Source: Deltaproteobacteria bacterium (GTDB lineage: Bacteria; Desulfobacterota; Desulfobulbia; Desulfobulbales; VMSU01). From it: DNA of 38,265 bases. The DNA lies in the NCBI GenBank assembly GCA_024275235.1, contig JAJRZN010000076.1:1-38265 (forward strand), read 5' to 3'. How positions within the stretch are numbered: position 1 is the first letter of the stretch; each line of letters begins with the position of its first letter. The position numbers and the translations under genes are program-made. Below the pieces are notes generated by a model that was given only the letters and a program-made list of their open reading frames with translations, did not search any database and had not been told where the DNA came from. Below are positions 16,752 to 24,683 of the stretch, piece after piece.

Positions 16752-18483
16752 TAACAAACAGGTGCTTTCCAATTCAGCGGGAAAAAAGATTAACGCTGAA
16801 AAGAGGCTTAAAAGGCTGGAGTTAGAGCGTGACCGGCGGGCCGCCCTGAAGCATCAAAAAAAGGCAGCGGCTGTAAAAGAGGCCTCTCCCGTTATCGTAA
16901 AAAAGACTGCTGCCACTGATCAGGCGGTAATTACCGGTTGGTTGTCAGTAGTTGATCCATGGGGGCATCAGGTCTCTAAGATACGCGGCGCTATAACCGG
17001 CACGGGGTGGCTGGCCTTACCAGGCCGCGCCTGTATCGGGGGTAAAAAATGGCTGTTTACTACTGGTTCAGGGGGGCAATATATTGTCAATTCCGGGCTG
17101 TGGAGAGCCGGGGATGCTGTCGGGCTGTGGCATGTTGATTTAAAGACCCCTTATTCCGGCCCCGTCTTGCGGGCCTGGAACAGTAGTCTGCCGGTTGACT
17201 GGTTTCGGTTGACTGGTTCTGGGGTAAAGAGGAATATTAAATTAAGTCCCGGTAAGCCATCGGGGAATTTTGTGGTTTGTTCATTTGTTAATAAGCGGAA
17301 GTCTGAGGCGGGTATTTTCGTCCAAAACGGCTATATTGTCGGCTGGAGTTTTGGCCCCTGGCTCAACAACACCTATATGTGGGCGGGCGGGACGGGTAAG
17401 TCTCTAAGCAATAACAGTACCGTTGATGATTTTTATAATCAGACCTTTGCCGGCGGTCGGGAAGAACAATTCGCAAAGGCTTATGCTCAGCAGGAAAATT
17501 CAACTCTAACACAATTAGCGGCTCTCGCTGCCGCCTGGCAGACAGCACCAAAATTAAGACTGGCCGATACGCCTGATTATTTGCGGCCCGCGGAGATTAC
17601 AAAACTTATGCGGCGCTTAAGCCGCCGGGCGATAAAGGCTGGGCATGGTGCTGAAGTTGTACGGATATTAAACGCCGACACCTTGCGCCGGGCGGCAGAC
17701 ATAAATCTCCTCATGGATATTGTCCCGGCAGTGACCGCAGCGAGCGGCTTTGAGGCCGCGACCTCTCTTATTGAGAATACCGGTCGTGATATTGTGCAGG
17801 CCGGAGGACATAATGTTCCGGCCCTTAATGTCATGCATGCCGGGTTATATAGAGAATGGCTGCAATCACTGGTAGCGGTGCGGGCCGTTAAGGAGGGGAT
17901 AACTGTCTGGCGCAAAGCCAGTGAATTTTATCCAAAAGATCCGTCTCTGCATCTTCTCGGCGTAGAACTGTTGCTGGCGGCTGGTAACTGGCAGGAGGCG
18001 GAGACTCTGCTTTACAACCGTGAATATCCCGCCGCTTTACAGGATAAAGTTGATCTTTTGGGTCGTCGTATCTCTGACATGAAGGGGGAGGCTGGTAAGA
18101 TTGTTATCCATTTTCAGCCCGGCTCCAGTACTATTCCGGTTACGGCTCTGCTAAACGCCGGAATGAGTCAGAAGTTTATGGTGGATACCGGTGCCTCCAT
18201 GGTTACAATTCCCTCCGATACGGCCGATGCCCTGGGGCTTAAAATCATCTCTGATTATCATGGCAGCAGTCAGGACGTTTTCACTGCCGGCGGGATGATA
18301 TCCGCCACTCGGGTGATGATTGATACCCTGGAGATAGACGGCTGGGTAGAGCATGATGTCCCGGCTCTGGTGATGGATATTCCCGGCCAGCCGGGAATGG
18401 GGTTGCTGGGGTTGAATTATCTTAAACGTTTTAAGATGAATTTGAATAACGACCAAGGCTCTCTGCTGTTAACTCCGAGATAA
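16729..18483 (+). CDS. Retropepsin-like aspartic protease domain protein
   Basis: A 584-aa frame from GTG 16729. The N-terminal 50 residues are a charged helix. Residues about 60-240 form a beta-rich region (GTGWLALPGRACIGGKKWLF) loosely like a degenerate trypsin-fold domain. About 260-450 is helical and TPR-like (NWQEAETLLYNREYPAAL). The C-terminal 120 residues are a single-chain retropepsin domain: catalytic FMVDTGASMVTIPSDTADAL and late GLLGLNYLKRF. Retropepsin domains act as dimers. The 5' end overlaps the zinc-ribbon/TM gene by 23 bp in another frame, and frame 1 upstream is open back to 16684, so one indel would join them. It converges on the YcaO gene with 15 bp overlap. The substrate is unknown. 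Confidence 0.72.
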   Translation: MIFPAGIDNKQVLSNSAGKKINAEKRLKRLELERDRRAALKHQKKAAAVKEASPVIVKKTAATDQAVITGWLSVVDPWGHQVSKIRGAITGTGWLALPGRACIGGKKWLFTTGSGGQYIVNSGLWRAGDAVGLWHVDLKTPYSGPVLRAWNSSLPVDWFRLTGSGVKRNIKLSPGKPSGNFVVCSFVNKRKSEAGIFVQNGYIVGWSFGPWLNNTYMWAGGTGKSLSNNSTVDDFYNQTFAGGREEQFAKAYAQQENSTLTQLAALAAAWQTAPKLRLADTPDYLRPAEITKLMRRLSRRAIKAGHGAEVVRILNADTLRRAADINLLMDIVPAVTAASGFEAATSLIENTGRDIVQAGGHNVPALNVMHAGLYREWLQSLVAVRAVKEGITVWRKASEFYPKDPSLHLLGVELLLAAGNWQEAETLLYNREYPAALQDKVDLLGRRISDMKGEAGKIVIHFQPGSSTIPVTALLNAGMSQKFMVDTGASMVTIPSDTADALGLKIISDYHGSSQDVFTAGGMISATRVMIDTLEIDGWVEHDVPALVMDIPGQPGMGLLGLNYLKRFKMNLNNDQGSLLLTPR

Positions 18484-20217
18484 TATTTGCGTCAGCTCTT
18501 CACGGGCAAAGTCGATGTCCGGATCCATGGACAGGGCCAGTTCAAAATATTTTACGGCCTGCTCCACATTATTTATTTTCCGGTAGTTAATCCCCAGATT
18601 GGCATAATCCATGGCCGAGGCCGGATTTAGCTCCACCGCCCGGTGGAAGTGTTTTATCGCCTGTTTGAAATCATCTTTTTTATAGCAGCAGACCCCCAAA
18701 AGATTGTGGATGTCTGGCCTTTCTTCATCGTGATGCAAACCTTTATGCAGAACATCGGCCGCCTCATCGAATCTCTCCTGATCTTTATAACAGCTTCCCA
18801 TGTATGAATAGATATAGGGAATATCCTCAGCTTGAGGCTCCAGCTCCAGAGCCTTGTTCAGATGTTCCATGGCTTCATTATGACGGCCCATGTCGTGCAG
18901 ATTGCGGCCGAGATAGAATTCCAGATAATAGGCCTGGGGCAGAAATTCCCGCATTTTAGAGAGTTGCTCATTGGCCGCTTCGGGAGATGAGGCTTGTTCA
19001 GCTACCAGTTTGGCGGCAAAAAGACCAGCATCATTTACCATTGATCTCTCCCGGAAATGCGCCCCTGGAATGATGGTATAAATAGCGGGAATCTGCAGGC
19101 GCTCATGCATGGTATTTATAATAAAAACTTCCATGTCAAGACTCTGAAGAGAGGCGGTCATGTTCTCCACCTCTGTTCTCATGTTATTGTCGGAAATGTC
19201 CGGCATGTCGTCGAGGTCAATGCTGCTGCCGGGATTGACGATGTAATCCATCTCTGTGAGGCTGCCGGGCTTGGGCAGACCGCTGGCCACATAATTGGCT
19301 CCGGTGTGAAAATCACCAGCGAGCTGCGCTACCTCGGTAAGGGCGCGAATAAGGGCCTTTGCCGGATTGGGGGTGGTTCCGGCGGTATAGACAATCTCGC
19401 TGGTTTTGGGGAATGTCCCCTGGTCGATGGCCATTGCTCCAATGGTGGGAATACCGGTATCAAGCGTAAAATCATTTAGATATACACTGATACCGTTGCG
19501 GGTGAATTTGGCCAGTAACTGGCTGGCCACCTTGTCTTTGATGGTGTCCATGTTAATGGTCGGAACTTTGAGGTGGTCACGGGTTACCAGAGCACAGACA
19601 TGGCGCTCGACAATTTCACAAATTCCCTGGCTGATGGCCTCCTCGTATGAATTACCAGCTGAAGGGCCGTTAAATTCGTTAATGGCGAAGAACCAGCTGA
19701 AGGGCACCAGGACATCTTTGGTTCTGGTCAGATTGTGAGCCCAGACCCATTGAATTGGGATATTGGTCAGTAATTTACTCAAGGTGCCGACATCCATATG
19801 CTCGTCATGAACGGACTGTAAAAGCCGTTCGAGAGGCATTAAAGGATGGCCGGAGGCCTTGATTTCCTCGTAGGTGGCGGTAATAAAATTGGCCGGATTC
19901 TTGATGAAACTGAAAAAACTGAAACGTTCAGCCAGTTCCATACAGGCGCTGGCCTGTGATTGCTCCGGGGTGCTGCCCTTACCCATCTGCTTTTTGGTGC
20001 CGATTATATCCCGGGCATCATTGCCGCAGACACTGAAGTAGACTGGGATATCAAGGCGGCCGCTGTCGATTCGCTTTACCTCCTTGAGAATATCAAGGTT
20101 AACTTCCTGCAGGCGATCCTTAAAACGTTTAACGGTCTCCACGGGGTTGCAGACCTTGTCCTGGTCAAAGGTATAATGTTTAAGGGAGTCGTGAAGGCGG
20201 ATGGTGTTTTTCTGCAT
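18469..20217 (-). CDS. YcaO-domain protein with C-terminal TPR repeats
   Basis: This 582-aa protein starts at ATG 20217; an in-frame TTG lies four codons upstream. Residues about 60-400 are a YcaO ATP-dependent cyclodehydratase/thioamide-synthase fold. All three nucleotide motifs are visible: SQASACMELAERFSFF, SYEEAISQGICEIVERH and KALIRALTEVAQ. From about 430 there are three to four TPRs (GRHNEAMEHLNKALELEP, DFKQAIKHFHRAVELNPAS, NVEQAVKYFELALSMDPD). YcaO enzymes activate a peptide or protein amide with ATP; partners decide between azoline, amidine and thioamide products. E. coli YcaO also has a C-terminal TPR-like region but differs in its N-terminal part. The upstream gene is a radical SAM enzyme. 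No TfuA, E1-like partner or obvious precursor peptide is present. Confidence 0.88.
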   Translation of the reverse strand: MQKNTIRLHDSLKHYTFDQDKVCNPVETVKRFKDRLQEVNLDILKEVKRIDSGRLDIPVYFSVCGNDARDIIGTKKQMGKGSTPEQSQASACMELAERFSFFSFIKNPANFITATYEEIKASGHPLMPLERLLQSVHDEHMDVGTLSKLLTNIPIQWVWAHNLTRTKDVLVPFSWFFAINEFNGPSAGNSYEEAISQGICEIVERHVCALVTRDHLKVPTINMDTIKDKVASQLLAKFTRNGISVYLNDFTLDTGIPTIGAMAIDQGTFPKTSEIVYTAGTTPNPAKALIRALTEVAQLAGDFHTGANYVASGLPKPGSLTEMDYIVNPGSSIDLDDMPDISDNNMRTEVENMTASLQSLDMEVFIINTMHERLQIPAIYTIIPGAHFRERSMVNDAGLFAAKLVAEQASSPEAANEQLSKMREFLPQAYYLEFYLGRNLHDMGRHNEAMEHLNKALELEPQAEDIPYIYSYMGSCYKDQERFDEAADVLHKGLHHDEERPDIHNLLGVCCYKKDDFKQAIKHFHRAVELNPASAMDYANLGINYRKINNVEQAVKYFELALSMDPDIDFAREELTQILSRS

Positions 20218-20324
20218 AATAATTACCAAGTTGATTGTAGTAAATTAATAAATATCAGGCACTGGCATACTACTTTGTAGTAGTACATATAGCCGTTTAA
20301 CTTGAAAATTGCAAATCTTTCTTC

Positions 20325-21620
20325 TCAGGGGTTTACCGGGGGATTAAAATAACCGAAACCAAGGCCTGGATATCGGATTTTCAGTTCCGCGAGCCATTGT
20401 CTGATGCCCATTGATCTGCTGTCTGTTGGATGTTTAATACCCTCGAGATACCAGTCCGGATCCATATTCAGATTGCGGAGTTGAATGAAATCAGGGCCGC
20501 AGTCATCAATGAAGTGACATAGGGCACTAAACTCCTCCGGGTAGTCGGTAACTCCGGGGAATATAAAATAATTAAGGGATACGAAACGGCCCCGTTTTTT
20601 CATTTCCTTAATGGACCGGCCGACGGAATCAAGATTAAAATCTTTAGGCCGGTAATAACGCTGGTGAACCTCAGGACGGGCGCTGTTCATACTGGCCCGC
20701 ATACTGTCAAGTCCGGCCTCCGCGAGGCGGGCTACGGTCTCGGGGCGGCTGGCATTGGTGTTTAAATTGATGGTGCCGTTTGCTGTCTGCCGGCGGATTA
20801 ATTTGATGGCTTGAGCAATGGTATCCGCCTGGAGCAGCGGCTCACCTTCACAACCCTGGCCAAAACTCACCACTCCTTGCGACTTGACCTTCTGGAGATG
20901 ACTGACCGCTATATCGGCAATCTCTGCCGGGCTGGGAATAAATTTTATCCTTTCCTGAGTTGAGGGGCAGCAGCCGGAGGGCTGGAGAGATATGCAGCCC
21001 AGGCAGCGGGCGTTACAGACCGGTGAACAGGGAAGGGGGGCCTCATCCCGTTCCAGAAAAAAATTCCTGGCGGCCGGGCAGCTGTAAGTCAGGCTGCATT
21101 TGCCAAGATGCTGGATCAGGCGGTTGTCTGGATACCGGCGCAGAGATTTTACTGTCTGTCGTTCAATTTTGTCAGGATCAAAACGGCAGATATCCTGACG
21201 TCTGCTGATATCGCTGCGAAAGGCACTGACCCAGAATCTATCGTCATGCCAGCCCACGGCGCTGTACGCGAAGAGCGGCAGGGGGGGTGGGGAGGTGTTA
21301 TCTTTTTCAAAGGCGGTTATATGGCTGAGGGTGTAAGCCGGCGAGATAAAGGCCGCAACGGCCTGTACCTCACCGGCGGCAAAGGGATTATCTTTTAATT
21401 TAAGGGATTCACCGTTATCCGGGTTAAATCCCACCGGATAACGGTGCGGCAGGACAAACAGTTCGCTGCCCTCCGGCAGGGGAATAAGCTGGTCTAAATG
21501 AGGAGCTTGAAAGCGGTAAGCACTGCGGCCGGCCATTTCGAGTTCCGGGAAATCATATATCTGTCCATTGCTGTCGGCAAAAAGCAGACAGGGCATCGCC
21601 CGGGGATGTTCTCCGCTCAT
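20325..21620 (-). CDS. Radical SAM protein of unknown substrate
   Basis: A 431-aa protein. The radical SAM cluster motif CNARCLGC (Cx3Cx2C) lies near residue 203, unusually late, after an N-terminal domain of about 190 residues (ELFVLPHRYPVGFNPDNGES is typical of it) that I cannot assign. Extra cysteines precede the motif (GKCSLTYSCPAA, PCSPVC) and follow it (GCCPST), so an auxiliary cluster is possible. The barrel continues with VVSFGQGCEGEPLL (GGE-like), TINLNTNAS and FIQLRNLNMDPDWY. It lies 6 bp after the 141-aa gene and 107 bp before the YcaO gene on the same strand. An internal Met (21596) after GGAGAA is an alternative start. No known radical SAM family is matched with certainty. Confidence 0.82.
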   Translation of the reverse strand: MSGEHPRAMPCLLFADSNGQIYDFPELEMAGRSAYRFQAPHLDQLIPLPEGSELFVLPHRYPVGFNPDNGESLKLKDNPFAAGEVQAVAAFISPAYTLSHITAFEKDNTSPPPLPLFAYSAVGWHDDRFWVSAFRSDISRRQDICRFDPDKIERQTVKSLRRYPDNRLIQHLGKCSLTYSCPAARNFFLERDEAPLPCSPVCNARCLGCISLQPSGCCPSTQERIKFIPSPAEIADIAVSHLQKVKSQGVVSFGQGCEGEPLLQADTIAQAIKLIRRQTANGTINLNTNASRPETVARLAEAGLDSMRASMNSARPEVHQRYYRPKDFNLDSVGRSIKEMKKRGRFVSLNYFIFPGVTDYPEEFSALCHFIDDCGPDFIQLRNLNMDPDWYLEGIKHPTDSRSMGIRQWLAELKIRYPGLGFGYFNPPVNP

Positions 21621-21625
21621 CCGGG

Positions 21626-22051
21626 TCAGGCAGACGGCCGAATGCTGTGCATTACGGAATCGATTGTTTTGTATATATCCATATCATCACCAAAAATATC
21701 AAGAATAGCCGGGTTGTTAATTAAATCTTCAATGATATATTGGGTAAGATAAAGACTGATAATGTTAGGATCAGGCACCATGGTACGAATGGGGGCGGTT
21801 TTGAACTGAATGTCAAATTCGTCCATATCGGCCATCCGGCTCAGAATTTTGCTTAATAATTCTCTGATAGTTCGTTCAGAGTTGGTTTCAATAATATGAT
21901 CGTCAAGGAGGTGTTGAACTAATTTCAGTGCCAGGTCATCAGCATGACGGAAACAGGCCTGCAGCATATATTTTCGTTCCCTCTCCCGATCCCGGTCAAT
22001 CGCCTTGGCAGCCCTTTCCGCGGCTCCGTATGGATTATGTGCCCTCGCCAT
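21626..22051 (-). CDS. Uncharacterised 141-aa helical protein
   Basis: The product is not recognised. It has a strong ribosome site (AGGAGATATAA before the ATG). The sequence is predicted mostly helical and acidic after a basic start (ERAAKAIDRDRERERKYML), with the pattern YLTQYIIEDLINNPAILDIF near the end. It has two cysteine-poor halves, no signal peptide and no membrane segment. It heads the minus-strand trio with the radical SAM and YcaO genes, so it may be a partner or a substrate carrier of that pair (inference from order and the 6-bp gap). It is too long and regular to look like a typical RiPP precursor. Confidence 0.7.
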   Translation of the reverse strand: MARAHNPYGAAERAAKAIDRDRERERKYMLQACFRHADDLALKLVQHLLDDHIIETNSERTIRELLSKILSRMADMDEFDIQFKTAPIRTMVPDPNIISLYLTQYIIEDLINNPAILDIFGDDMDIYKTIDSVMHSIRPSA

Positions 22052-22507
22052 TTATATCTCCTTATCTTAGATGAATGCTTAAATGAATGTAACTGTTCAG
22101 CAGCACCCCATATCGGAGTCTACGCTTACCTTGCCCGGTTGGGACTTCTCGAATACCAAAGTATGCTTCGAAGTCCTAAATAAACAAACCTGGAGCACTG
22201 CTGAACAGTTACGCTCCGAGGGGGTCGTCACTTTTAGGCATCACGCTGAATAGTTACAAATGAATTTAATTAGTTGTGTTATGTCTCGTGCTTAGAAACA
22301 GTCTCTAAGACCATTTGAAAGATCTGAAAAACGCAATTTAGTAAAATAATTGATTGTGAGGAAAAATTAAAGTAATATGATCAAATTATCTTAAATAAAT
22401 TGCTGACTGTTAAAGTCAAGGCTTTCCTGAACTATTACTGAACCTCGTTCAGGGCATTTATTCACTTTTGTCTCGCAGTCAGGTAAATTAAATTAGTGGA
22501 AAGGATT
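22052..22507. other. 456-bp gap with an inverted-repeat element and promoter region
   Basis: The left part (22089-22257) is a repeat element described separately. The right part (22260-22507) is AT-rich with no gene. A small hairpin CTGAAC-CTCG-TTCAG (near 22439-22453) lies about 60 bp before the sulfite-reductase-like gene. The gap separates divergent genes, so promoters for both must lie here, but I see no clear consensus match. Confidence 0.4.
22089..22257. repeat. MITE-like element with 15-bp inverted ends
   Basis: GTAACTGTTCAGCAG (22089-22103) and its exact reverse complement (22198-22212) flank a 94-bp centre that contains a second inverted pair (GGACTTC at 22142, GAAGTCC at 22170) and the core motif GTCTACGCTTACC (22118-22130). 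A third, imperfect arm GCTGAATAGTTAC lies at 22245-22257. Similar arms occur near 11382 and 16281-16339. There is no transposase. Confidence 0.7.
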
Positions 22508-23128
22508 ATGAACAAGAAAAAACTCAAAAAAAGTATTACCATTCTGTTGCCGGCCGGGTTACTGCCGGCTGAGTTGTTAACCGTGGTTTACGATCTGGCC
22601 AAGCGCTATAATCTCGGTATTTATTTGTCTACAGCGCAGAATATCCGTCTCTTAGATGTCAAAGATGAAAATGAGGCGGCAATTAAGAAGGCGCTTGTTG
22701 ATGCTGGGGCGGAGTTAAAGGGGCCGGGGAAATTCCCCCTGCCCCGTATCTGTGTCGGCAGTCAGTATTGTCAGCTGGGAATGGTTAACACCCAGGCCTT
22801 CTCAAATCGTATTCTGGAACGTTTTAAGGATCGGGCCAATGTGAAGCCAAAATTTAAAATTGCCGTTTCGGCCTGTCCCGCTTCCTGTTCGAATCCTCTT
22901 ACCACCGATATCGGGGTTCGGGCCGTCAGAAATGGTTTTGAGGTTTACGCCGGTGGTAAAGGAGGCCCGAAGCCAAAGGTCGGCCGCCGTATTGCCGCTG
23001 GGGTTGATGAAGAGGAGGTTCTGAATATAATTGAGTCTCTGGTTGATTTTCATGCCTGTAAAACAGGTAAGAAACAGCGTCTCGTGAAACTTATTGACGA
23101 CCCTGAGTTTCCTTTTGTCGCAGTTTGA
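22508..23128 (+). CDS. Small sirohaem/4Fe-4S nitrite-sulfite-reductase-like protein
   Basis: I use ATG 22508 (206 aa), preceded by GGAAAGG. The N-terminal about 70 residues are a ferredoxin-like half-domain of the sulfite/nitrite reductase family. Next comes the sirohaem-[4Fe-4S] ligand set: ICVGSQYCQLG (C-x5-C) and VSACPASCSNPLTTDIGV (C-x3-C). At half the length of a full assimilatory enzyme it matches the small 'assimilatory-type' sulfite reductase/ferredoxin-domain proteins of sulfate reducers and methanogens, whose physiological reaction is mostly unsettled. It is followed by a thioredoxin-reductase-like flavoprotein, a possible electron donor (inference). Confidence 0.85.
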   Translation: MNKKKLKKSITILLPAGLLPAELLTVVYDLAKRYNLGIYLSTAQNIRLLDVKDENEAAIKKALVDAGAELKGPGKFPLPRICVGSQYCQLGMVNTQAFSNRILERFKDRANVKPKFKIAVSACPASCSNPLTTDIGVRAVRNGFEVYAGGKGGPKPKVGRRIAAGVDEEEVLNIIESLVDFHACKTGKKQRLVKLIDDPEFPFVAV

Positions 23129-23188: not shown

Positions 23189-23218
23189 ATTATTACGATT
23201 GAATAACAGGTGAATTTT

Positions 23219-24139
23219 ATGAGTGAAAATATAATTGATGTGCTTATTGTCGGTGCCGGCCCGGCTGGTTTGCAAGCCGCTGTCCATGCCGTTCGTAAAA
23301 AGGCCGGGGTAAAGGTTTTTGGCCGGATTGAGGCCAGCAGTTTATACGAGGCTCATGTTGAAAATTATCTTTGTGTCAGCGGGGTCAGCGCCGGGGCTGA
23401 TCTGCTTGCCGTTGCCAGGGAGCAGGCCCGTAGTTTTGGGGCTGATATAATTAATGAGGATATCCTGAGCCTTGAGCAAAAAGATAATTTATTTTTTGTT
23501 CGTACAGAGAGCGATGAATTCCTAACCCGTTCCGTAATTCTCGCCACCGGCACCTCGCGTAAAAAGCTCCGAGTGGCGGGTGAGAAGGAATTTGCCGGCC
23601 GCGGGGTGAGTTATTGTGTCGATTGTGACGCCAATTTTTTTCGCCAGGCCAGGGTGGCAGTGGTGGGGAATGGCAGCGCGGCGGCTGATGGAGCTTTAAC
23701 CCTGCTTAATTATGCCTCTGAAGTTTTTCTGCTTGCCGATAAACTTGATCTGGCTCCCGACTTGGCCACCAAGCTCGCCGCGAGCGCCGTGCAGGTGAAG
23801 GAGACCACGGTAAAAGAAATTGTCGGTAAGAATGCCGTCGAATCTCTGCTCCTGACTGATGGCAGTAAGCTGGAGTTGGAAGGGGTCTTCATTGAGCTGG
23901 GGGCCAAGGGCGCCCTGGAGCTGGCGGTAAATATCGGGGTTGGTCTCGATATGGAGACCATGAGCCATATTGAGACCAATAAACAGATGGAAACCAATAT
24001 TCAGGGAATATATGCCGCTGGTGATATCGTCGGCCCCCCCTACCAGATGGCCAAGGCCGTGGGTGACGGCTGTGTGGCGGGCTGGTATGCCGCCAATTAT
24101 GCCAATAAATTAAGGCGTCAAGAGGAGGCGGGTTCCTGA
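23219..24139 (+). CDS. Thioredoxin-reductase-like FAD/NAD(P)H disulfide oxidoreductase
   Basis: I use ATG 23219 (306 aa) because CAGG lies about 10 bases upstream. FAD binding: VLIVGAGPAGLQAAVHA. Redox-active pair: SYCVDCDANFF (CxxC; most thioredoxin reductases have CATC or CAVC). NAD(P)H site: AVVGNGSAAADGALTL, a loosened GxGxxA without the usual GGGDSA. The C-terminal FAD motif is YAAGDIVGPPYQMAKAVGDG. These changes suggest a specialised member rather than the housekeeping TrxB, perhaps reducing the sulfite-reductase-like protein upstream or a dedicated thioredoxin. No thioredoxin gene is adjacent. Confidence 0.85.
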   Translation: MSENIIDVLIVGAGPAGLQAAVHAVRKKAGVKVFGRIEASSLYEAHVENYLCVSGVSAGADLLAVAREQARSFGADIINEDILSLEQKDNLFFVRTESDEFLTRSVILATGTSRKKLRVAGEKEFAGRGVSYCVDCDANFFRQARVAVVGNGSAAADGALTLLNYASEVFLLADKLDLAPDLATKLAASAVQVKETTVKEIVGKNAVESLLLTDGSKLELEGVFIELGAKGALELAVNIGVGLDMETMSHIETNKQMETNIQGIYAAGDIVGPPYQMAKAVGDGCVAGWYAANYANKLRRQEEAGS

Positions 24140-24159: not shown

Positions 24160-24594
24160 ATGCGCCTGGCTTACGGTGAGGCGTTACGAGCCGCAAAACG
24201 CGGTGAGGTACCGGTGGGGGCGGTTCTTAGCGCTGCCGATGGCACGGTGCTGGCTCAGGCCGGAAATTCGGTTATCGGTTTTCATGATCCCAGTGCTCAT
24301 GCCGAAATTTTAGTTCTGCGGCAGGCCGGGCAGCGCTTGAAGAACTATCGACTGCCTGACACAACGATTTATGTTACCCTTGAGCCCTGTATTATGTGTT
24401 TTGGAGCCCTGATTCAGGCCCGCGTCGCCCGCCTGGTTTTCGCGGCTCATGACCCCAGGACCGGAGCAGTAGAGAGCCGCTGTCAAATCGGCCGGGATAA
24501 TTTTCTTAACCATAAAATAAGGGTTGAAACAGGAATAATGGCCGCTGAATGCGGGGCCTTGTTAAAGGATTTTTTTCGTTCACGAAGAAGTTAG
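24160..24594 (+). CDS. tadA: tRNA-specific adenosine deaminase
   Basis: TadA converts A34 to inosine in tRNA-Arg(ACG). GEVPVGAVLSAADG is the typical N-terminus, HAEILVLRQAG carries the zinc His and catalytic Glu, PCIMCFGALIQARV the two zinc Cys, and GAVESRCQIG the GA-rich later motif. From ATG 24160 the protein is 144 aa. However, AGGAGG (24123-24128) lies 32 bases before that ATG and only 7 bases before an in-frame CTG at 24136, which would add eight residues (LTDSALNY) in the place where TadA proteins normally have a short lead-in. The true start may be that CTG. The stop codon shares one base with the tRNA-Ser gene. Confidence 0.93.
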   Translation: MRLAYGEALRAAKRGEVPVGAVLSAADGTVLAQAGNSVIGFHDPSAHAEILVLRQAGQRLKNYRLPDTTIYVTLEPCIMCFGALIQARVARLVFAAHDPRTGAVESRCQIGRDNFLNHKIRVETGIMAAECGALLKDFFRSRRS

Positions 24595-24683
24595 GAGAGG
24601 TGCCAGAGTGGCCGAATGGGCCGCACTCGAAATGCGGTGAACCTTTGCGGGTTCCGTGGGTTCGACTCCCACCCTCTCCGCCA
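24594..24683 (+). tRNA. tRNA-Ser (anticodon CGA)
   Basis: A 90-nt cloverleaf. Acceptor GGAGAGG (24594-24600) pairs with CCTCTCC (24673-24679), followed by discriminator G and encoded CCA (24681-24683). The anticodon stem CCGCA/TGCGG closes the loop CTCGAAA with anticodon CGA (reads UCG). The long variable arm (GAACCTTTGCGGGTTC) is typical of serine tRNAs, and the T-loop GTTCGACTC is normal. The first base coincides with the last base of the tadA stop codon, so the tRNA must be excised from, or transcribed through, tadA. A 6-bp hairpin AGTATC/GATACT (24683-24703) follows. Confidence 0.97.

Follow-up and report, generated by a model that had tools for sequence, protein, structure and literature searches.

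The window analysed here is a stretch of 38,265 nucleotides (contig JAJRZN010000076.1) from a deltaproteobacterium of the family Desulfurivibrionaceae, order Desulfobulbales. This report concerns a run of three genes on its minus strand, and the tie between the product of one of them and the sulfur carrier DsrC. The gene in question (18469..20217) encodes a 582-residue protein, hereafter YcaO-TPR, in which a YcaO domain is followed by tetratricopeptide repeats (TPRs). The other two encode a 431-residue radical S-adenosylmethionine (radical SAM) enzyme (20325..21620) and a 141-residue protein (21626..22051), the latter with a plausible Shine-Dalgarno sequence, AAGGAG, upstream. A first-pass annotation of the window had described the run as three genes on one strand with gaps of 107 and 4 bp; the open reading frames are indeed intact, and the gaps measure 107 and 5 bp, within one base of those figures. 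All three genes are conserved in relatives: among 38 in the order, the radical SAM gene and the 141-residue gene are each kept in 36, and the YcaO gene in 35.

Given that homologues begin MxKxxIRL, the start of YcaO-TPR was taken as the ATG, although the mechanically called frame, with a TTG start, reaches 20229. The protein matches Pfam YcaO (PF02624) with 235 bits (E=1.9e-69) over residues 82-390 and contains four TPR_2 stretches, and its C-terminal part, residues about 416-586, is a helical TPR domain (586-residue numbering). The residues of the ATP motifs, including the stretch SAGNSYEEAISQGICEIVER, are invariant across 44 homologues (E98, E101, R102, E197, Q201, E205, E208 and R209). YcaO-TPR is a member of the YcaO superfamily with ATP/Mg-binding acidic motifs, and the intact motifs and TPRs reported in the first pass are borne out. 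Among curated YcaO models, the best score is obtained with TIGR03266 (methanogenesis marker 1; 138 bits, below the cut-off of 365), followed by TIGR03604, the TOMM-type cyclodehydratase of ribosomally synthesized and post-translationally modified peptides (97.5 bits, not above 219), and NF040716, the E. coli-type YcaO associated with uL16/S12 (54 bits, not above 700). The AlphaFold model (mean predicted local distance difference test score, pLDDT, of 93.5) finds its best fit in the PDB in Methanocaldococcus jannaschii YcaO, 6pe3/6peu. A grouping with E. coli YcaO, which the first pass had named as the outcome that would speak against its proposal, is thus not what was found: the E. coli-type model trails TIGR03266, and in the PDB match 6pe3 scores 145 bits versus 64 bits for the E. 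coli structure 4q84.

The radical SAM enzyme has Radical_SAM as its sole Pfam match (E=3.5e-15, residues 198-363). The cysteines of its CX3CX2C motif (C202, C206 and C209) are invariant in the alignment, as are the extra cysteines already remarked upon from the sequence, C175, C181 and C257. Its model (pLDDT 91.7) has a beta-rich N-terminal domain, which was sought in a fold search against the PDB; this returned generic radical SAM barrels only, and the best PDB sequence match reached only 29.6 bits, so that neither search yielded a close known family. No NCBIfam radical SAM equivalog was matched above cut-off, the best being moaA with 33 bits against a cut-off of 284. The 141-residue protein matched nothing above cut-off in Pfam or NCBIfam; a likeness to RegB (E=0.006) was below cut-off and was taken as chance. 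A small sulfite-reductase-like protein of 210 residues (22496-23128), encoded divergently from the three genes, neighbours the pair of 141-residue and radical SAM genes in many relatives. As the first pass had stated, no precursor peptide or E1-like partner turned up among the scanned window genes, short open reading frames not having been searched exhaustively.

Within Desulfobulbales, the 141-residue and radical SAM genes lie at most 500 bp apart in 24 genomes; in 6 further ones an arginine decarboxylase gene stands between them and the distance is about 2.2 kb. The YcaO gene lies within 500 bp of the radical SAM gene in 10 genomes, and in another 9 the distance is at most 10 kb. The former pair is tight, and roughly half of the genomes have YcaO next to it or close by. 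In the neighbourhood comparison proposed in the first pass, the linkage is conserved within the order, but beyond it the radical SAM and YcaO genes come within 20 kb of each other in two genomes only, G170 (135 bp) and G071 (3.6 kb, with a second YcaO type). In a sample of 296 Desulfobacterota genomes, the radical SAM enzyme is present in 154, YcaO-TPR in 113 and the 141-residue protein in 57, of which 53 carry dsrA, the sulfite reductase gene. The radical SAM enzyme is absent from 31 of the 113 genomes with YcaO-TPR, and is present in 64 genomes without dsrA.

These distributions bear on the idea, put forward in the first pass, that the three products form one system with a single target. Such a system would account for the adjacency of the genes in the family of the window and in several more within the order, and for a row of radical SAM, YcaO and dsrC genes in G170, which belongs to a different order; the counts of YcaO-TPR without the radical SAM enzyme, of the latter without dsrA and of the sparse 141-residue protein, together with the two lone cases of proximity outside the order, make it very improbable. 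Since the profiles of YcaO-TPR and the radical SAM enzyme diverge across the phylum and their genes are rarely neighbours outside the order, the three-gene run is real and locally conserved, yet not obligatory. Hence, the radical SAM enzyme and the 141-residue protein are ruled out as obligatory partners of YcaO-TPR by phylogenetic profiles and gene distances; they form an independent pair, found throughout the order and frequently, though not always, located next to YcaO-TPR. A role for them along with DsrC modification is possible in Desulfobulbales and unsupported outside that order.

A better-supported partner of YcaO-TPR is DsrC, which is encoded outside the window. DsrC is a sulfur carrier that takes the product of the sulfite reductase DsrAB to the membrane complex DsrMKJOP, and through it almost every dissimilatory sulfate reducer links the reduction of sulfite to the conservation of energy. 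In the phylum sample, 111 of the 113 genomes with YcaO-TPR have dsrA (Fisher p 2e-46, uncorrected for phylogeny), and the remaining two (G295 and G305) both have DsrC, its gene being adjacent to YcaO in G295. A DsrC match exists in 112 of the 115 genomes holding YcaO-TPR or the second YcaO type. The genome of the window carries dsrA and dsrD on contig C115. Its dsrC (G000:C82:5050-5130) is a 27-residue fragment at a contig edge, in which the arm residue discussed below is unreadable.

Gene neighbourhoods point the same way. Near distant homologues of YcaO-TPR, a gene of about 106 codons recurs whose product ends in GPGKGACKMAGLPKPTGCV; it scores 115 and 124 bits with TIGR03342, above the cut-off of 53.5, carries both arm cysteines (CKMAGL...GCV) and is a genuine DsrC. 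A contig scan for YcaO-TPR was considered for its best 80 loci, all titled as Deltaproteobacteria-type lineages, Proteobacteria or unplaced bacteria, and dsrC is adjacent in 18 of these 80 named genome loci, including Thermodesulfobacteriaceae, Desulfarculaceae and Desulfobacterales. Across 108 YcaO-TPR loci, dsrC is the commonest neighbour (same strand in 20 of 20) and no other fixed client gene was seen; nor was a recurrent TfuA-like neighbour noticed in them, no TfuA profile search having been made. A phylum-wide DsrC search gave 24 cases in which YcaO and dsrC are no more than 1.7 kb apart, every one with both genes on the same strand; they come from 11 families and show both gene orders. 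YcaO precedes dsrC in most pairs, and also in family f51, Thermodesulfobacteria and Desulfobacterales; dsrC comes first in family f26 and in two named Desulfarculaceae loci (L339 and L342). By our estimate, such closeness would arise by chance in well under 1% of genomes of 3 Mb. We consider a functional link between YcaO-TPR and DsrC likely.

Two further arrangements were observed around YcaO genes. In a Thermodesulfobacteria-like clade (L172, L180, L270-L290), fusA and a conserved gene of about 165 codons (KYEWPTFVKDFNRQN) stand upstream of YcaO-dsrC, which is followed by a gene of about 550 codons. The second YcaO type, of about 485 residues and too short for a TPR domain, occurs in G123 (L201:12440-13897), G071 (L194:5617-7062), G039, G104, G130, G140 and G155. 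It scores 166-176 bits with the McrA-thioamidation model, closer than YcaO-TPR, and all seven genomes have dsrA; in G123 it lies beside dsrC, and its target may be DsrC or a Dsr protein.

The presence of YcaO-TPR also goes with a difference in DsrC itself. In DsrC sequences from 114 genomes, numbered after the D. vulgaris protein (2v4j), the arm cysteines are C93 and C104, and position 89 stands four residues before the functional Cys93. Residue 89 is glycine in all 75 genomes with YcaO-TPR, versus 28 alanines and 11 glycines in the genomes lacking it. For the dsrA-positive genomes of the phylum sample, the counts are 53 Gly and no Ala with YcaO-TPR, and 3 Gly and 27 Ala without. DsrC of Archaeoglobus (A. 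fulgidus, 1sau) and Pyrobaculum (1ji8) has alanine at this position. In family f49, G104 and G130 have YcaO-TPR and Gly89, whereas G071 and G155 have lost YcaO-TPR and have Ala89 in an otherwise similar DsrC; the G071 assembly is a single contig, 99% complete.

Several observations around this position were recorded. In Ala89 genomes (L219, L225, L234, L237, L221), dsrC sits in a dsrAB-(dsrD)-dsrN-like-dsrC-dsrM/K-like operon, and Gly89 dsrC is often outside it. The contents of Ala-type loci (dsrAB, often dsrD, a CobB/dsrN-like gene, dsrC and dsrM/K-like genes, named by position and sequence inspection, with no family search) led us to reject, as a general rule, that these genomes belong to sulfur oxidisers with dsrEFH. 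Four f88 genomes, G221, G298, G240 and G260 (L215, L229, L236, L238), encode Gly89 DsrC-like proteins with tails PEGC/PDGC and have neither dsrA nor YcaO-TPR. In L371 (G012), a genome with two YcaO-TPR copies, DsrC reads SGPGKGARKMAGLPKPTGCV, with Arg in place of the arm Cys93, through a sequencing error or as a real variant.

Given that the nearest profile is that of McrA-glycine thioamidation and the nearest fold 6pe3/6peu, thioamidation is proposed as the reaction. The YcaO domain would use ATP to phosphorylate a backbone amide oxygen of DsrC, and free sulfide, plentiful in the cells of sulfate reducers, would displace the phosphate to leave a thioamide, in which one oxygen is swapped for sulfur, with no need of TfuA. 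The likeliest site would be Gly89, at the base of the arm SGPG(89)KGAC(93)KMAGLPKPTGC(104)V, the mobile C-terminal segment of DsrC, and its modification would yield thioglycine, the residue that McrA also carries. Docking of the client would fall to the TPR domain. A basic arm, with an isoelectric point (pI) of about 9.4, and an acidic TPR domain, with a pI of about 5.2, are weakly compatible with such docking. Taken as a whole, this scheme of ATP- and sulfide-dependent thioamidation of TPR-docked DsrC seems to us an even proposition; that DsrC is the substrate has the balance slightly in its favour, and thioglycine at Gly89 as the product, with reaction type and site both inferred, is put forward more tentatively. 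So too is its extension, by which DsrC of most sulfate-reducing Desulfobacterota, D. vulgaris included, could carry an overlooked backbone thioamide at Gly89, placed there by a dedicated YcaO-TPR. Of the modification system that the first pass had envisaged, then, a YcaO enzyme that is very probably an amide-activating protein modifier, with TPRs for client binding, is supported, and the ribosomal target is not.

Some findings weigh against DsrC thioamidation. A DsrC tree built with the arm excluded needs only two Gly/Ala changes, one deep split and the recent f49 event, so the Fisher p-values (8e-19) overstate the Gly89 case and were not accepted alone as proof, although both changes coincide with YcaO-TPR. 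The 11 YcaO-negative genomes with Gly89 include the four dsrA-negative f88 genomes; Gly89 would be expected to persist once the enzyme has been lost, or where the protein is a different one, as in f88. Native DsrC chains in the PDB (2v4j, 2xsj, 3or1, 3or2) are listed with plain glycine, a statement that concerns the sequence listing and not maps or modification records. Many Desulfobacterales and Syntrophobacteria have YcaO and dsrC apart from each other, and part of the linkage between the two genes is one inherited block, fusA-165aa-YcaO-dsrC, in one clade. Finally, a deletion of DVU2210, the D. vulgaris homologue considered below, respires sulfate at near wild-type rate (PMC7774982).

Some of these points would be accommodated if YcaO-TPR modified another protein, such as DsrAB, AprAB or the ribosome, and its tie to DsrC reflected a co-inherited set of sulfate-reducer genes plus one old block. 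The scarcity of independent Gly/Ala changes and the clade-bound block suit this alternative, the distribution of dsrA matches that of YcaO no less well than that of dsrC does, and uL16 is the client of E. coli YcaO, an enzyme that likewise has a TPR-like domain (PMC13063428). However, YcaO and dsrC are found linked with either gene first, in unrelated settings and without exception on one strand, the second YcaO type adjoins dsrC as well, and the profile score of YcaO-TPR is far from the E. coli type; another client is thus unlikely, if the foremost of the alternatives.

Somewhat less probable still is that DsrC acts as the sulfur donor, its persulfide or trisulfide feeding a YcaO-TPR whose thioamidation target is a different protein, of the Dsr complex, the ribosome or elsewhere, much as TusE supplies MnmA. 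DsrC belongs to the TusE/DsrC sulfur-relay family, the same co-occurrence and linkage would be predicted, and apart from dsrC no fixed client gene adjoins YcaO-TPR in the loci compared. Against this reading stand the Ala89 proteins: these retain both arm cysteines and should donate equally, yet their genomes lack YcaO-TPR. Moreover, a stand-alone YcaO requires free sulfide only (PMC13063428), which sulfate reducers make abundantly.

Earlier work on this family concerns DVU2210, found through molybdate resistance in Desulfovibrio vulgaris (PMC7774982). It combines YcaO and TPR in a sulfate reducer, and its ATP motif SAGNTEEESILQGSCELVER matches the YcaO-TPR family, to which we infer that it belongs from architecture and this quoted motif. 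A strain deleted for sat becomes resistant to molybdate when DVU2210 is lost or carries the ATP-motif substitution S195R (PMC7774982), as would be anticipated if the enzyme activated molybdate or another oxyanion with ATP, as was proposed. Expression of DVU2210 in E. coli brought no molybdate sensitisation, however (PMC7774982); oxyanion activation also leaves the dsrC linkage and the Gly89 pattern unexplained, and YcaO catalysis on protein amides is established, all of which makes it a most improbable reading. As for thioamidation of DsrC, dispensability in one condition would not exclude DsrC as the client, since McrA thioamidation is likewise non-essential, its mutant showing defects when substrates yield little energy and when the temperature is raised (PMC5589413). 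Among the open-licence papers searched, none mentions both YcaO and DsrC, and YcaO appears together with dsrA only in the molybdate paper (PMC7774982); earlier work elsewhere is possible.

Beyond the sulfite-reductase-like gene, the window encodes, also divergently from the three genes, a thioredoxin-reductase-like protein (23210-24139), and a tRNA-Ser(CGA) (24594-24683) follows immediately after a tadA-type deaminase gene (24160-24594).

The link to DsrC is strong. If the proposed modification is true, a one-atom change hidden in the moving arm of DsrC would revise its chemistry, in parallel to the thioglycine of methanogen McrA. A YcaO family that spans the phylum and is known only by an unexplained molybdate phenotype would also gain its first substrate, and Gly versus Ala at residue 89 would stand for two different solutions adopted by the arm of DsrC.

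In comparison with known systems, YcaO-TPR resembles E. coli YcaO in being a stand-alone bacterial YcaO, the latter with a C-terminal TPR-like domain and acting on a folded cellular protein with ATP and sulfide; the purified E. coli enzyme thioamidates whole uL16 (at Met82) given only Na2S, MgCl2 and ATP (PMC13063428). The two differ in that whole-chain superposition is poor (root-mean-square deviation above 10 Å over about 615 columns for 4q84-4q86), and E. coli YcaO is strongly acidic (pI 4.4) with a very basic client, uL16, whereas YcaO-TPR has a pI of about 5.3. The methanogen YcaO (TIGR03266; MJ1094, 6pe3/6peu) is closer, with the nearest curated profile, the nearest solved fold and the ATP motifs. 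Thioamidation of a glycine, in a protein central to the respiration of an anaerobe, is predicted for YcaO-TPR as well, and the methanogen enzyme does not need TfuA in some species, thioglycine being present without it in M. jannaschii and Methanopyrus (PMC5589413). Given these two species and the E. coli reaction with free sulfide, a TfuA-free enzyme in sulfate reducers is reasonable. Unlike the methanogen enzyme, YcaO-TPR has a C-terminal TPR domain, its predicted client is DsrC instead of McrA, and its hosts are bacterial sulfate reducers. Within the TusE/DsrC family (TIGR03342), the Gly89 subtype goes with YcaO-TPR, and the Ala89 subtype (1sau, 1ji8 and the DsrC of dsr operons) does not.

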